Part shown: positions 24,287-49,749 of the stretch, piece after piece | Numbering within the stretch: the stretch's first letter is position 1 | How the letters are laid out: every line of letters begins with the position of its first letter | NCBI RefSeq assembly: GCF_019665765.1 | Contig: NZ_CP081150.1 | Location: forward strand, 1 to 64,000 | DNA length: 64,000 nucleotides | From: Deefgea tanakiae | GTDB lineage: Bacteria; Pseudomonadota; Gammaproteobacteria; Burkholderiales; Chitinibacteraceae | Reading direction: 5' to 3' | Program-made: the position numbers and the translations under genes | Notes under the pieces: generated by a model | The model's input: only the letters and a program-made list of their open reading frames with translations | Database searches by the model: none | What the model was told of the DNA's origin: nothing

Positions 24287-24403
24287 AAGAACTCCAAACT
24301 TATGTATATGGCTCTAAGCTTTATAAAACATGGCTTAATGGGTAATACATCCTACTTGTTAGTGATGCTTTGTTTTTGTGTTGTGCTGCAGTTGTCGAGT
24401 TGA

Positions 24404-24570
24404 GGCTTTAAAATCCCTCCATATCAAACCGACGAAGTCGGTGCAGATATAGGGGCGCCTTTCTTTGCTTACTTTCTTTGGCGAAGCAAAGAAAGTGAGT
24501 CCCCGTCGCGGATTGCGACTGTAAAACAACGTGCCGTAGGCACCTAAAACCAATAATACGTAATCTGAAC
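24404..24570 (+). repeat. Modular repeat with covarying hairpin, copy A
   Basis: The 5' module contains CCGACGAAGTCGGTGCAGAT. The shared 3' module has the stem CTTACTTTCTTTG/CAAAGAAAGTGAG with loop GCGAAG, then CCCCGTCGCGGATTGCGACT and GTGCCGTAGGCAC. It fills the gap between puuB and the NTF2-like gene. Copies B, C and D lie at 40298, 48651 and 50831. Confidence 0.8.
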
Positions 24571-40297: not shown

Positions 40298-40536
40298 GGG
40301 CTGGGGCTTAAAAATCCCGTCTTAGCGCACCGAATGAGGGAGAGAGACAAGCAGTTTTATCGTTTGGCTCACGATCGATCGAGGGCATCGGGGACCGATG
40401 CGCGCTCGGGTCGCCTTCTTTTGCTTACTTTTCTTGGCGAAGCAAGAAAAGTGAGTCCCCGTCGCGGATTGCGACTGTAAAACAATGTGCCGCAGGCACT
40501 TAAAACCATCAACACGTAATCTGAACAAAGCCTCGT
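40298..40536 (+). repeat. Modular repeat with covarying hairpin, copy B
   Basis: This copy has a longer 5' module, with GAGGGCATCGGGGACCGATG, that is shared only with copy D. The 3' module holds the stem CTTACTTTTCTTG/CAAGAAAAGTGAG. It fills the gene-free stretch before proA and yields several false ORFs, including an extension of proA. Confidence 0.8.
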
Positions 40537-44726: not shown

Positions 44727-46160
44727 ATGTCAAATCAATCAGAACTGATCGCCAGCGATATCTTGGCGTATTTGAAGCAACACGAAAACAAAGACATGCT
44801 GCGCTTTATTACTTGCGGCAATGTGGATGACGGTAAATCGACTTTGATCGGTCGCTTGCTGCACGACTCAAAACTGATTTTTGAAGATCACCTTGCGGCG
44901 ATTCAAAAAGACAGTCAAAAGTTTAACACGACAGACCAAGAAATCGACTTGGCGTTGCTCGTTGATGGCTTGCAAGCTGAGCGCGAGCAGGGCATTACGA
45001 TTGACGTGGCCTACCGTTATTTCAGTACTGAAAAACGCAAATTCATCATCGCCGATTGCCCAGGCCACGAGCAATACACGCGCAATATGGCGACCGGTGC
45101 TTCAACGTCTGACCTCGCAATTATCTTGATCGACGCGCGTTACGGCGTGCAAACGCAAACGCGTCGCCACAGCTTTATCGTGTCGCTGCTGGGTATTAAG
45201 CAAGTGATCGTTGCGGTGAACAAGATGGACTTGGTTGAGTTCTCGGAAGCGCGTTACAACGAAATCCGTGCGCAATATTTGGATTTCGCTAAAGACTTGG
45301 CGATTGAAGACATCGAATTTGTGCCATTGTCGGCACTGCGCGGCGATAACGTCGTGAATGAATCCGACAAAACGCCATGGTACGAAGGGCAAACTTTGAT
45401 GGGCTTGCTGGAAAGCGTGCAAATCAATAAACACGCCAAGCTCGATGCATTCCGTTTGCCAGTGCAATACGTGAATCGCCCGAACCTCGACTTCCGTGGT
45501 TTCTGCGGCACGATTGCAGCAGGTCACGTGTTGCCCGGCGACGAAATCATTGCGCTACCATCCGGCAAAAAATCGAAAGTGAAAGCGATCGTTGCGTTTG
45601 AAGGTGAGCAGCCTGCAGCGTTTTCTGGTCAAGCGATCACCTTGACGCTAGAAGATGAAATCGATATTTCCCGTGGCGATATGATCGTTCGCGCACAAGA
45701 TGCGCAGCCGCATGTCGGCAGTGCATTTGACGCGCATTTGGTGTGGATGAACGAAGCTCCGCTAGTGGTTGGCAAGGAGTATATGGTCAAGCTCGGCGGT
45801 AAACAATGCTTTGGTCGTGTTACCTCTATCCAGTATCGTATCGACGTGAATAGTCTCGATCATCTGAACGTGCAAGAACTCAAGCTCAATGAAATTGGTT
45901 TGGTTCGCATTGATTTGACCGCACCAATTGCATTCGACACCTACCGCGAATGCCGTGGCACGGGCAATTTGATCATTATCGATCGTTTGACCAATGCCAC
46001 TTCCGCCGCCGGCATGATCCACGCACCAGCCGCTGCCGTAGCTGCGACCGAAGTGGATGAATTGACTCGTCTACGCGCATTCGAAGCCGATTTGAACGCG
46101 CTGGTTCGTAAACACTTCCCACATTGGGGCGCCAAAGACGTATTGGATTTGCTGAAGTAA
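44727..46160 (+). CDS. cysN: Sulfate adenylyltransferase subunit 1 (GTPase)
   Basis: This 477-residue EF-Tu-like GTPase couples GTP hydrolysis to APS formation. The G1 loop is [17 protein letters not shown], followed by [20 protein letters not shown] and NKMDL. It lacks the CysC kinase domain found in some fusions, so APS may be reduced directly or the kinase lies elsewhere. The gene ends in a strong terminator at 46179. Confidence 0.96.
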
Positions 46161-46208: not shown

Positions 46209-46352
46209 GTGTGAACAATGTCGTGCAAAATATATGCAGCCTGCTGGCGTTTCTGTAGGTTGGTGCTGCACTTGCGAAGCCCAGCAATAGCGGTAAACGT
46301 AAGGCTGCATTCTATTTAGCCCGACCTACGATGCTAATCGTAAAATAAAAAG

Positions 46353-47405
46353 CTATTTTATTTTAATTCCATTTAGGCAATATTGTACTAATGCATTTCT
46401 TCGTTTCTTTCTTTGTGCTTTGCCTTTAGTGGCATTCATCATGCTCGATTTATAACTTGCTAATGAGGGGTCGTGCTCAAAGTTAGAGTTCATGTATTCA
46501 CCATAGAACTTATGAAGCTTATTTTTCACATCTTTAGGTTTTATTTCATGTTGAATGCAATAATATGAAAAAGCCCATAAGCCATATAAGTGACTCACTC
46601 CAGAGATATTAAATTCTGAAAAATCAACTTCCATTTCGATGAAGAAATCAGAAGTTTTACGAATCTTAGATTCAATGTCTTCCCAGTGGATCTCTTCGCT
46701 ATTTGCGTATTTTTGATAAAGACTGTCTAAAACTTTCGGCGATGAAGCTAGTTCGCCATTTTCTATTATCAGAAAAATAAACTCTGAAACTAATTCAATG
46801 TCCTCCATTCTGTTTCTATTTGTAACGTCTAATTCATTCTCCCAGAAAGAACTTCTTGCAAATTTATATGCTAATTGAACGAGTTTAGAATCGTAGTACT
46901 TTGCATTTCTAAGTTCTTGCCCATTTAGTTTTTCTCCACTTCTATTTAAACGATCAAATATTTTTTCAACAGTTTTGTCATCTTTTGTATAAACATATTC
47001 AATAGGTACTGGATATCCCCAAAACTCTCTTAGAATGTCCTCGAAATTATCAGATTCTAAATCTGATATCTTCAAGCCAGCTAACTCAGGAGAATATAAA
47101 GCATCATCATCGTCGTCAGCTGTAGTTAGTTTGTTATCAATGAACTTAAAAATTGATGTTAGTCTTTGTTTTCCATCAATTACTTCAAAGGAAGTGACTC
47201 CTTTATTGTCAATGTGCTCCCGCAAAAAAATAGGAGGGATAGGGATGTTTTTTAAAATACTATCAATTAGTAACGATTGTTGCTCTGTGCCCCATACACT
47301 CTTTCTTTGGTATTTCGGATCCATATTTAGTTTGTTTAGTGTTCGCCATTCATTTAGAGATGAGATGGTAACAGTATTTGATTTTCGTTTTAATCGTACA
47401 CTCAT
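46353..47405 (-). CDS. DUF262 (GmrS-N / ParB-like) protein
   Basis: This 350-residue protein has a DUF262 domain: YQRKSVW (32-38), the hallmark DGKQRLTSI (77-85) and RLNRSGEKLNGQELRNA (152-168). DUF262 is related to ParB-type nucleotide-binding folds and is the N-terminal half of GmrSD restriction enzymes; the DUF1524 HNH nuclease half is missing here. The C-terminal 180 residues are helical and unrecognised. Its ATG overlaps the TGA of the SIR2-like gene (ATGA), so the two are coupled. The region is strongly A+T-rich compared with cysN and sseA, a sign of transfer. Confidence 0.85.
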   Translation of the reverse strand: MSVRLKRKSNTVTISSLNEWRTLNKLNMDPKYQRKSVWGTEQQSLLIDSILKNIPIPPIFLREHIDNKGVTSFEVIDGKQRLTSIFKFIDNKLTTADDDDDALYSPELAGLKISDLESDNFEDILREFWGYPVPIEYVYTKDDKTVEKIFDRLNRSGEKLNGQELRNAKYYDSKLVQLAYKFARSSFWENELDVTNRNRMEDIELVSEFIFLIIENGELASSPKVLDSLYQKYANSEEIHWEDIESKIRKTSDFFIEMEVDFSEFNISGVSHLYGLWAFSYYCIQHEIKPKDVKNKLHKFYGEYMNSNFEHDPSLASYKSSMMNATKGKAQRKKRRNALVQYCLNGIKIK

Positions 47406-48442
47406 AACACTAATTCCTTTAATGCTTTGCTTGAATCAAAATGGATGTAATTTTTAAAAAGACTATTTATTACTGACTCAAAATATTTATCCATTGATGG
47501 ATTTATGTTTATTAGGTCCATATCACTTGATGGAGAAATCAAAATGCTGTCTATTTCGGCTCTGTCAACATGCCAGTAAGAAATTCCGGAAATGATCATT
47601 AAGTCATTTTTTGTGAACTGCCTGATCTTTGGTTCATAGATTTGGCGTAAACTAGCATTCCAGCCATCTTTTGTTCTGTTGACATCACCAGCAGGCGGGA
47701 TTAAAAAAATAATAGGGTTGTTTGTGCATAGATCTTCATATTTTACTTTTATATCAATAGATGAACACTCAGATTTTAGCTCTGAATAATTGATGTTAAA
47801 GCTAGATAGTGGCAGGTCTTGCTTGTATTTGAAGCTAATCGATCCATGTGGTTTGAATATTTTAAATTTGCAATTTTTACTTTCTTTTTTTATTGGTGGT
47901 AGTTCAAACTTAATATTCAAATGCTTTAGTATTCTTTCAAGCCATATGTCGTAGTTGTAAGTTACTATAATTACTTCTTCAATGTCCGGCGAGTTACTTA
48001 AAGTGGAAAAAAATATAGCCCAGGCCCAATCTTTAATTTCGTCAGGTATTTTTACTACTTTGCTATTGAAATGGATAAATAAATATTTCAAATAAGATGT
48101 AAGTTCTTTGTAGGCTAACAAGTATTTCTGCTCATTGTTAATGTCATTTTTACCTTTGAGTGCGTATACGTTAACGCTGGTTACAATTTTTTCAATCAAA
48201 TTCATTGTTTCATTTTTATCTAAATATGGACGAGCACCGAGATCCCAAAGATGAGGAGTGTATTTTTTAGATAAAAATCCAGGGTTATTGTTAGATGGCC
48301 ATTTTAAATTAGAACCGTGAGAAAATAAATTTGAAACATCAACATCATTCCAAATATCCTTCATGGATTCTGATATGTGATTGAAAAAATCAATCGTGAA
48401 ACCATTTCCTAAGACTATACAAATTTTCTTGTTTTTAGACAT
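47402..48442 (-). CDS. SIR2-like (NADase-type) protein
   Basis: This 346-residue protein has a SIR2-like fold. I see ICIVLGNGFTIDFF (about 7-20), VTYNYDIWLERIL (Asn163 and Asp165), the active-site type KPHGSISF (His199) and IISGISYWHVDRAEI (about 283-297). In defence proteins of this fold, the Asn and His cleave NAD+. The ATG at 48442 has AGGA 7 bp upstream; the ATG at 48460 lacks one. It is the first gene of the cassette, and the DUF262 gene overlaps it by ATGA. It is A+T-rich with rare-codon use. It may be a phage-defence protein; this is inference. Confidence 0.8.
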   Translation of the reverse strand: MSKNKKICIVLGNGFTIDFFNHISESMKDIWNDVDVSNLFSHGSNLKWPSNNNPGFLSKKYTPHLWDLGARPYLDKNETMNLIEKIVTSVNVYALKGKNDINNEQKYLLAYKELTSYLKYLFIHFNSKVVKIPDEIKDWAWAIFFSTLSNSPDIEEVIIVTYNYDIWLERILKHLNIKFELPPIKKESKNCKFKIFKPHGSISFKYKQDLPLSSFNINYSELKSECSSIDIKVKYEDLCTNNPIIFLIPPAGDVNRTKDGWNASLRQIYEPKIRQFTKNDLMIISGISYWHVDRAEIDSILISPSSDMDLININPSMDKYFESVINSLFKNYIHFDSSKALKELVL

Positions 48443-48650
48443 TGAAATCCTATTGGTCATACGTGTATTTTATTAGTATAAAAATACCGCGTGCAACCCA
48501 ATAATGTTGAGTTCTGTTGAGTGAACGAATCGGTCCGTTTCTGTGCATGCTTGCGATTTATTTATCTCAATTCATTGTGCTCGTTGAAATCCTATTTAGA
48601 CGTATTTAATAGCGCTATTCATTTTATGTCGATATTATGCCGCATTCGTC

Positions 48651-48801
48651 GGGCTGCAGCTTTTAAAATCCCTCAATATCAAGCCGACGAAGTCGGTGCA
48701 GATATAGGGGCGTCTTTCTTTGACGAAGCAAAGAAAGTAAGTCCCCGTCGCGGATTGCGACTCCAAAATAGCGTGCCGTAGGCACTTATTTAAACTCGCC
48801 A
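48651..48801 (+). repeat. Modular repeat with covarying hairpin, copy C
   Basis: The 5' module CCGACGAAGTCGGTGCAGAT matches copy A. The 3' hairpin is shortened to CTTTCTTTG/CAAAGAAAG around ACGAAG. It ends at the sseA stop codon. It marks one edge of the A+T-rich SIR2-DUF262 cassette; the 48443-48650 stretch upstream of the SIR2-like gene holds only its A+T-rich leader. Confidence 0.78.
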
Positions 48802-49635
48802 TCAACACAGCATCGGTCGCGCTGGATCGCTGCACCACTCGCTCCATGAGCCCGGATACAAACGCCCGCCGCTTAAGCCCGCGACTTCGAGCGCGAGTAG
48901 ATTATGGCAAGCGGTGACGCCGCTGCCGCATTGATGCACCCATTGCGCTGGCGTGCGGTCGCCCAAGAGTTGCAGCCATTCTTGGCGTAACTGCATTACC
49001 GATTTGAAGTGGCCATCGGCTAAATTGAGCATGAAAAAGCGATTAATTGCGCCAGGAATATGGCCTGCTACGGGGTCGAGCGTTTCGCCGATGCCGATAA
49101 AGCGCTCGGCACTGCGCGCATCAACAATTTCAAATTGCGCGGAGGCTAAATTGGCGAGTACATCGTCAGTGCGGACATGTAGCTCAGGCCGTAGCTGGGT
49201 GTTGAAGGTGCTGGCAGGCCACATTGGCGTTGTCGTTTCAACGGGGGCTTGGGCCGCAAGCCATGCAGGCCAACCGCCATTAAGCACTTGCACGCTATCG
49301 CAGCCGAGCCAGCGCAAGAGCCACCACAGCCTCGCGGCAAATGGGCCGCCGCTGGCGTCGTAGGCGACGATTTTACTGCTCTCAGAAATGCCAAGTTGGC
49401 CTACTCGTGCGGCGAGCTGCGCTGGGTCGGGTAGGGGATGGCGGCCATTGTGACCGAGTTTCTCACCCGACAAATCCTCGTCGAGATGCAAAAAGCGCGC
49501 ATTCGGAATGTGGCTCTCCGTATAGGCGGCGCGCCCTGCTGCTGGATTGGCTAAGTCGTGGCGACAATCCACAATCACTAAAGCAGGGTCGGCCATCAGC
49601 GCTTGCAGTTGCGCCACATTGATTACAGGATGCAT
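48802..49635 (-). CDS. sseA: Sulfurtransferase with two rhodanese domains
   Basis: This 277-residue cytoplasmic enzyme moves sulfur to thiols such as 3-mercaptopyruvate products. Rhodanese domain 1 (about 10-125) has VIVDCRHDLA and the inactive-type active-site region; domain 2 (about 155-275) carries the nucleophile Cys in the loop HQCGSGVTACH, a CGSGVTA motif typical of SseA. I chose the ATG at 49635 (MHPVINVAQL) over a GTG at 49647. Confidence 0.88.
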   Translation of the reverse strand: MHPVINVAQLQALMADPALVIVDCRHDLANPAAGRAAYTESHIPNARFLHLDEDLSGEKLGHNGRHPLPDPAQLAARVGQLGISESSKIVAYDASGGPFAARLWWLLRWLGCDSVQVLNGGWPAWLAAQAPVETTTPMWPASTFNTQLRPELHVRTDDVLANLASAQFEIVDARSAERFIGIGETLDPVAGHIPGAINRFFMLNLADGHFKSVMQLRQEWLQLLGDRTPAQWVHQCGSGVTACHNLLALEVAGLSGGRLYPGSWSEWCSDPARPMLC

Positions 49636-49749
49636 ACAGTTCGCCACATTTAAATGTTATTTAGGTGGCAAAGCATAGCTTAGTCGGCGGCTGGTGATGA
49701 GATTGCGCCCGATTTGTTCGCGAAAAGGCAACAAATCGGCCACGAATTC

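Follow-up and report, generated by a model that had tools for sequence, protein, structure and literature searches.

Layout of the locus and base composition

The window (the whole stretch of 64,000 nucleotides of Deefgea tanakiae that was analysed) harbors a short A+T-rich segment between cysN and sseA, and this segment contains two coupled genes on the minus strand, the first encoding a SIR2-like protein and the second a DUF262 protein. The features of the locus are the following:

44727-46160, plus strand: cysN (the name fits by eye from the ORF list)
46209..48798, no strand: variable A+T-rich segment from cysN to sseA, 2590 bases, 34.0% G+C
46353..47405, minus strand: DUF262 (GmrSD_N, ParB-like NTPase) gene, second of the pair, 350 aa, predicted sensor/regulator
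47402..47405, minus strand: ATGA overlap between the SIR2 stop and the DUF262 start, 4 bases
47402..48442, minus strand: SIR2-like gene, first of the pair, 346 aa, predicted NAD-cleaving effector; alternative start at 48460
48635..48788, no strand: dispersed intergenic repeat on the sseA side of the segment, outside the SIR2-DUF262 system
48802-49647, minus strand: sseA (the name fits by eye from the ORF list)

Both open reading frames and their ATGA coupling were confirmed as the original prediction had placed them, with SIR2 preceding DUF262. The low G+C content that it had ascribed to the pair was also found, since the SIR2 gene (31.0%) and the DUF262 gene (32.9%) lie well below cysN (50.1%), sseA (58.5%) and the whole window (49.9%); the lowest value among the 64 one-kb bins of the window (0.329) falls at 47001-48000. 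The intergenic repeat has further copies at 24381-24546 and 40428-40502 (81-84% identity within the window) and is also matched in the sibling loci L020 and L021.

The SIR2-like and DUF262 proteins

The SIR2-like protein matches the Pfam family SIR2_2 weakly (E 3.4e-4, 21.2 bits), under the curated cut-off of 24.5. At E <= 0.1, six of six members of its family match SIR2_2 (best 1.1e-4) and the PADLOC SIR2 profile PDLC04082, two of six match the PADLOC Aga_SIR2 profile PDLC02408 (best 4.1e-6) and one matches PDLC02414 (3e-6). The motif TYNYD begins at residue 161 and KPHGS at residue 197, which places the SIR2-type residues at Asn163 and His199 exactly as had been predicted, and both are invariant in the two family alignments (5 and 6 rows). 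When solved structures were searched, single sequences gave nothing usable for either protein and profiles gave weak matches only, the best for SIR2 being 8w9l_A (E 0.036), presumably a SIR2-HerA structure, with TxNYD and HGSI in register. The structure model (pLDDT 70.2, pTM 0.71; residues 200-258 fall below 50 and are unreliable) alternates strands and helices, with a strand at 5-11 that precedes GNG and strands at 154-161 and 193-196 located just ahead of Asn163 and His199, respectively. PHROGs returned chance-level matches only for this protein, and NCBIfam nothing useful for it or for its partner. The SIR2-like protein is described here as a predicted NAD-cleaving effector, with Asn163 and His199 as its putative active-site residues.

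The DUF262 protein matches Pfam GmrSD_N over residues 28-170 (E 6.8e-28), and neither protein of the pair matches a DUF1524/HNH nuclease family in Pfam at E <= 1. Its motifs Q33-R34, D77-G-K-Q-R81 and F150-D-R-L-N154 are invariant across 7 aligned members; those of GrwA are QR, DGQQR and FxxxN (PMC12137116). The expectation of an intact DGKQR motif in a protein lacking the nuclease half is thus borne out, whereas the description of DUF262 as half of GmrSD stands for the GmrSD_N domain but not for the closest relationships, which are to PADLOC NsnA (best match, E 5.8e-38, residues 8-245) and to PD-T4-2_A (second best, E 2.5e-26). The protein is one of a larger group of short DUF262 proteins whose effectors differ. 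PHROGs matches comprise families of unknown function (best 8.4e-39) and a weak ParB-like one (0.0011). The model (pLDDT 84.0, pTM 0.67) shows mixed strands and helices up to about residue 138 and is all-helical from 143 to 344.

Conservation and distribution of the pair

Besides the window, seven loci carry a SIR2 relative of at least 38% identity:

L002, Shewanella aestuarii: SIR2 74% identity
L003, Sulfurovum mangrovi plasmid: SIR2 42% identity
L005/L025, genome G139: SIR2 39% identity
L006, L007, L008 and L026, four IMG/VR contigs: SIR2 41-42% identity

At all seven, SIR2 is followed in the same direction by a gene for a DUF262 protein from the clade of the window's own, either overlapping or at most 5 bases away. 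Because DUF262 adjoins SIR2 at every locus of this identity range, the pairing goes beyond chance, and the recurrence of the pair in other genomes that had been proposed as a check is found without exception among these relatives. In the reverse direction, a DUF262 profile search of IMG/VR returned 24 loci. Four of them match near full length at 38-42% identity and are the SIR2-bearing contigs listed above; the remaining 20 cover just a portion of the query. SIR2 scans of IMG/VR yielded 0 relatives with a single protein and 3, then 4, with profiles, and the IMG/VR counts are lower bounds because such scans miss relatives. The pair appears to be rare. In a phylum sample of 398 genomes including its own, the SIR2 gene occurs in 2 (E <= 1e-5) and DUF262 relatives in 54 (E <= 1e-15); the same two SIR2 genomes give DUF262 scores of 547-550 bits, the next DUF262 scoring 130 bits. 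Among the 7 genomes of the genus, and likewise among the 369 of the class sample, the pair is present in its own genome alone; SIR2 relatives occur in 2 of 72,556 plasmid records, and the annotated phage records contain no SIR2 relative at E <= 0.01.

Homologs range from 37 to 74% identity for SIR2 and from 37 to 65% for DUF262, and the catalytic and NTP motifs are invariant nonetheless. Pairwise identities of the two proteins among 7 intact pairs correlate at r = 0.87 (141 of 5040 permutations as high), a value that counts as no evidence because it depends entirely on the window-Shewanella pair (r = -0.02 when this pair is left out). Taken as a whole, the pair is a real, conserved and mobile two-gene module. 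On the Sulfurovum plasmid, the sir2 frame (L003:7998-9025) is broken in two next to a DUF262 gene that is intact; the copy may have been inactivated, or the break may be a sequencing error. A more distant SIR2 (24% identity) stands without DUF262 on a small Carnobacterium plasmid (L004:1908-2816), close to a ToxN/AbiQ toxin gene.

Genomic surroundings

The window's own neighbors of the pair look like housekeeping genes, and the junction itself differs between siblings. The sibling genome G001 aligns with the window up to 46208 and resumes at 48799, with about 16.3 kb in between; this insert (L019) encodes HsdM, HsdS and HsdR of a type I restriction system, RhuM and a phage-type integrase. In the five other siblings, the sequence retrieved beyond cysN contains other genes and lacks sseA, which lies elsewhere in G002, G003 and G005 and has no DNA match in G004 and G006. 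The sibling comparison therefore indicates a variable cysN-sseA junction that acquired a restriction system in one relative, and it may be an integration hot spot.

Recognised defence genes flank two of the seven relatives. In L008 the pair lies between AbiU (E 1.7e-170) and, at its opposite end, a C5 methyltransferase together with a BsaWI-like nuclease. In L007, a viral contig, a gene with RnlA toxin domains (Pfam) is found immediately downstream, with an RNase H gene, on the opposite strand (L007:7673-9734); the RnlA-like protein has no PADLOC match at E <= 1e-3. An integrase flanks one relative (L006). Among the subset of neighbors searched, no defence gene was recognised in L002, L003, L005/L025 and L026. 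The proposed check for defence islands is thus answered in part, with defence-type neighbors at two relatives and a type I system at the sibling junction. In G139, a second and different SIR2_2 protein (L025:1339-2346, E 6.6e-12) is located about 3.9 kb upstream of the SIR2-DUF262 pair.

Comparison with named systems

Several known systems resemble the pair in one of its components. PADLOC NsnA, the best match of the window DUF262, is taken here to be the Menshen protein, and both lack DUF1524. In Menshen, the DUF262 gene accompanies a predicted OLD nuclease (PMC10952713), unlike the window, where the partner is SIR2 and the flanking genes, judged by eye, are cysN and sseA. Moreover, the NsnA match is not specific to Menshen, because DUF262 proteins paired with a kinase, FRG or RelA also match this model (9.4e-45, 2.1e-31 and 7.9e-31). 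For PD-T4-2, whose PD-T4-2_A is the second-best PADLOC match, DUF262 and HEPN are both listed (PMC10952713), whereas the partner in the window matches SIR2_2 and not HEPN. The HEPN-paired DUF262 proteins found in this study form a separate clade; the two HEPN partners compared with PADLOC gave no match at E <= 1e-3, so that their assignment to PD-T4-2 is not supported. The type IV restriction systems GmrSD, BrxU, SspE and GrwAB share the DUF262 domain with QR, DGQQR-like and FxxxN motifs, but the window pair has no DUF1524/HNH match and DGKQR replaces DGQQR. SIR2-HerA likewise encodes a SIR2 effector with a nucleotide-binding partner (the 8w9l match reaching only the E-value given above); the window and all seven relatives have DUF262 in place of the HerA ATPase. 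In ptuXYZ, a short DUF262 without DUF1524 is found in an operon with a PtuA-like ATPase and a PIN/BECR-fold RNase (PMC11980606), an arrangement that is alike in the short DUF262 and the effector within the operon and differs by its three genes and its partners. No TIR or SLOG domain, as in Thoeris, was matched in either protein (Pfam, E <= 1).

Membership was consequently rejected for Menshen (no OLD-type nuclease partner), PD-T4-2 (no HEPN partner), GmrSD (no DUF1524/HNH nuclease), SIR2-HerA (no HerA ATPase) and Thoeris (no TIR/SLOG). The view that no described system consists of just these two genes has held up against PADLOC, which points to NsnA and PD-T4-2_A with other partners, and against a literature search of published papers, few of them from subscription journals and none of them bioRxiv preprints, that found no description of a SIR2-DUF262 pair; a 2025 study of Menshen domain polymorphism might describe such variants. 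The pair probably serves phage defence without fitting any of the named systems compared.

A wider family of short DUF262 proteins

Of 30 DUF262 loci listed for the phylum sample (the window and G139 among them), 17 gave a motif-bearing frame by script and 13 did not. Partners from 9 of 15 further genome loci were assigned by Pfam to FRG (4), HEPN_RiboL-PSP (4) and a protein kinase accompanied by a PLD-like protein (1). Ten regions were examined among the 87 plasmid and 19 phage records with a DUF262 match, and the 8 partners searched comprise one RelA_SpoT protein, one kinase and six without a family. The FRG genes stand directly upstream of the short DUF262 gene (L063, L065, L069 and L072) and so share the gene order of the SIR2 pair; of these four, the L065 protein was compared with PADLOC and matches the candidate PDC-S15. 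RiboL-PSP HEPN proteins were linked with ParB-like genes already in 2013 (PMC3710099), and FRG is a domain of the ART superfamily that may be an NADase (PMC9503650). The latter source names couplings of sirtuins with TIR, HerA, ABI-like, PIWI and TPR-GreA/B-PIN proteins, and its main text contains no word starting with ParB.

A tree of 27 DUF262 proteins (8 SIR2-paired, 8 from plasmids and phages and 11 of the 15 further genome loci; a sample picked partly for readable partners and not a census, with 8 rows of unassigned partner kind) resolves one clade per partner, namely SIR2 (8/8), FRG (4/4), HEPN (4/4) and kinase (2/2), with support of at least 100/98 and of 100/99 for the SIR2-paired clade. 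Partner labels change 7 times on this tree, where the minimum possible is 6 and the shuffled mean 16.9, while the deep branching among the partner clades is weak (77/66). This sorting by partner suggests that the switch is shared and its effectors exchangeable, and the window pair is best read as the SIR2-bearing branch of a modular family gated by DUF262. As a more tentative extension, it is quite possible that short DUF262 is an ancient and general immune switch whose effectors (SIR2, FRG, which is likewise predicted to use NAD+, HEPN RNases, kinase and RelA/SpoT-like) were exchanged between lineages, the SIR2 form of the window being an undescribed member that mobile DNA has carried across phylum borders. 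If so, one NTP-dependent sensor could lead to NAD loss, RNA cleavage, alarmone production or phosphorylation.

Proposed mechanism and alternative explanations

The reading that we favor, and consider reasonably likely, is a mobile two-gene immune module in which a NAD-cleaving SIR2 effector would be held and released by a DUF262 sensor or switch. SIR2, as a predicted Rossmann-type enzyme, would cleave NAD+ by means of Asn163 and His199; DUF262, made up of a ParB-like NTP-binding domain and an all-helical C-terminal half, would bind SIR2, hold it off and read, through its NTP state, an infection cue such as modified or foreign DNA or an altered nucleotide pool. On this cue, SIR2 would be released, NAD+ would drop and phage growth would stop along with the cell. 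Precedents exist for both halves. In SspE, recognition of marked DNA leads to NTP hydrolysis and activation of the linked domain, in BrxU NTP shifts the oligomer, and DSR2 depletes NAD+ (PMC10952713), as does ThsA of Thoeris (PMC9503650). By analogy, the simplest account would be a DUF262 gate of the SspE and BrxU kind acting on a SIR2 of the DSR2 and ThsA kind. The defence reading draws support from the conserved pairing, the motifs, the mobile and partly defence-type context, the SIR2 profile matches and the partner-sorted DUF262 tree. Counted against an immune module are the SIR2_2 score below its cut-off, the middling SIR2 model, defence neighbors in only two of seven relatives, the split sir2 of Sulfurovum, the Carnobacterium SIR2 without DUF262 and the correlation of -0.02.

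Other explanations are compatible with part of these observations. The pair could be a toxin-antitoxin module in which DUF262 is merely the antitoxin of a SIR2 toxin and the role is retention of mobile DNA and not phage sensing, as the overlap of the genes, the mobile context and the Sulfurovum plasmid, where sir2 is split and DUF262 is intact, would fit; we regard it as unlikely, given that DUF262 is large and two-part, with NTP motifs conserved beyond the needs of a simple antitoxin, and that anti-phage genes adjoin two of the seven relatives. It is less probable still that SIR2 acts as an ADP-ribosyltransferase, marking DNA, RNA or protein once DUF262 binds foreign DNA, with no drain of NAD+. 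DNA ADP-ribosylation has been proposed for sirtuin-HerA systems (PMC9503650) and DUF262 works with modified DNA in GmrSD, BrxU and GrwAB (PMC10952713, PMC12137116), but NAD+ depletion is what is given for the SIR2 defence systems covered in review (PMC10952713), and the subset of neighbors searched with Pfam contains no macro or other ADP-ribose-removing domain. A decayed or non-defence pair carried by chance seems very improbable: its rarity in the genus and phylum samples, where its own genome is counted in both, would agree with a passenger, but both frames are open, the motifs are invariant despite the divergence of the two proteins, and the identical pairing recurs in cellular genomes, on a plasmid and in viral contigs.

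The SIR2-DUF262 pair, as the favored module, looks like an undescribed anti-phage system. DUF262 is common to many defence systems, and what a DUF262 without a nuclease senses is the question raised here, for which the two-gene SIR2 form is about the simplest setting, with an output (NAD+) that is easily measured. The genome of the window has a second, distant DUF262 match at G000:C1:3059439-3059936, inside a frame of 595 aa.
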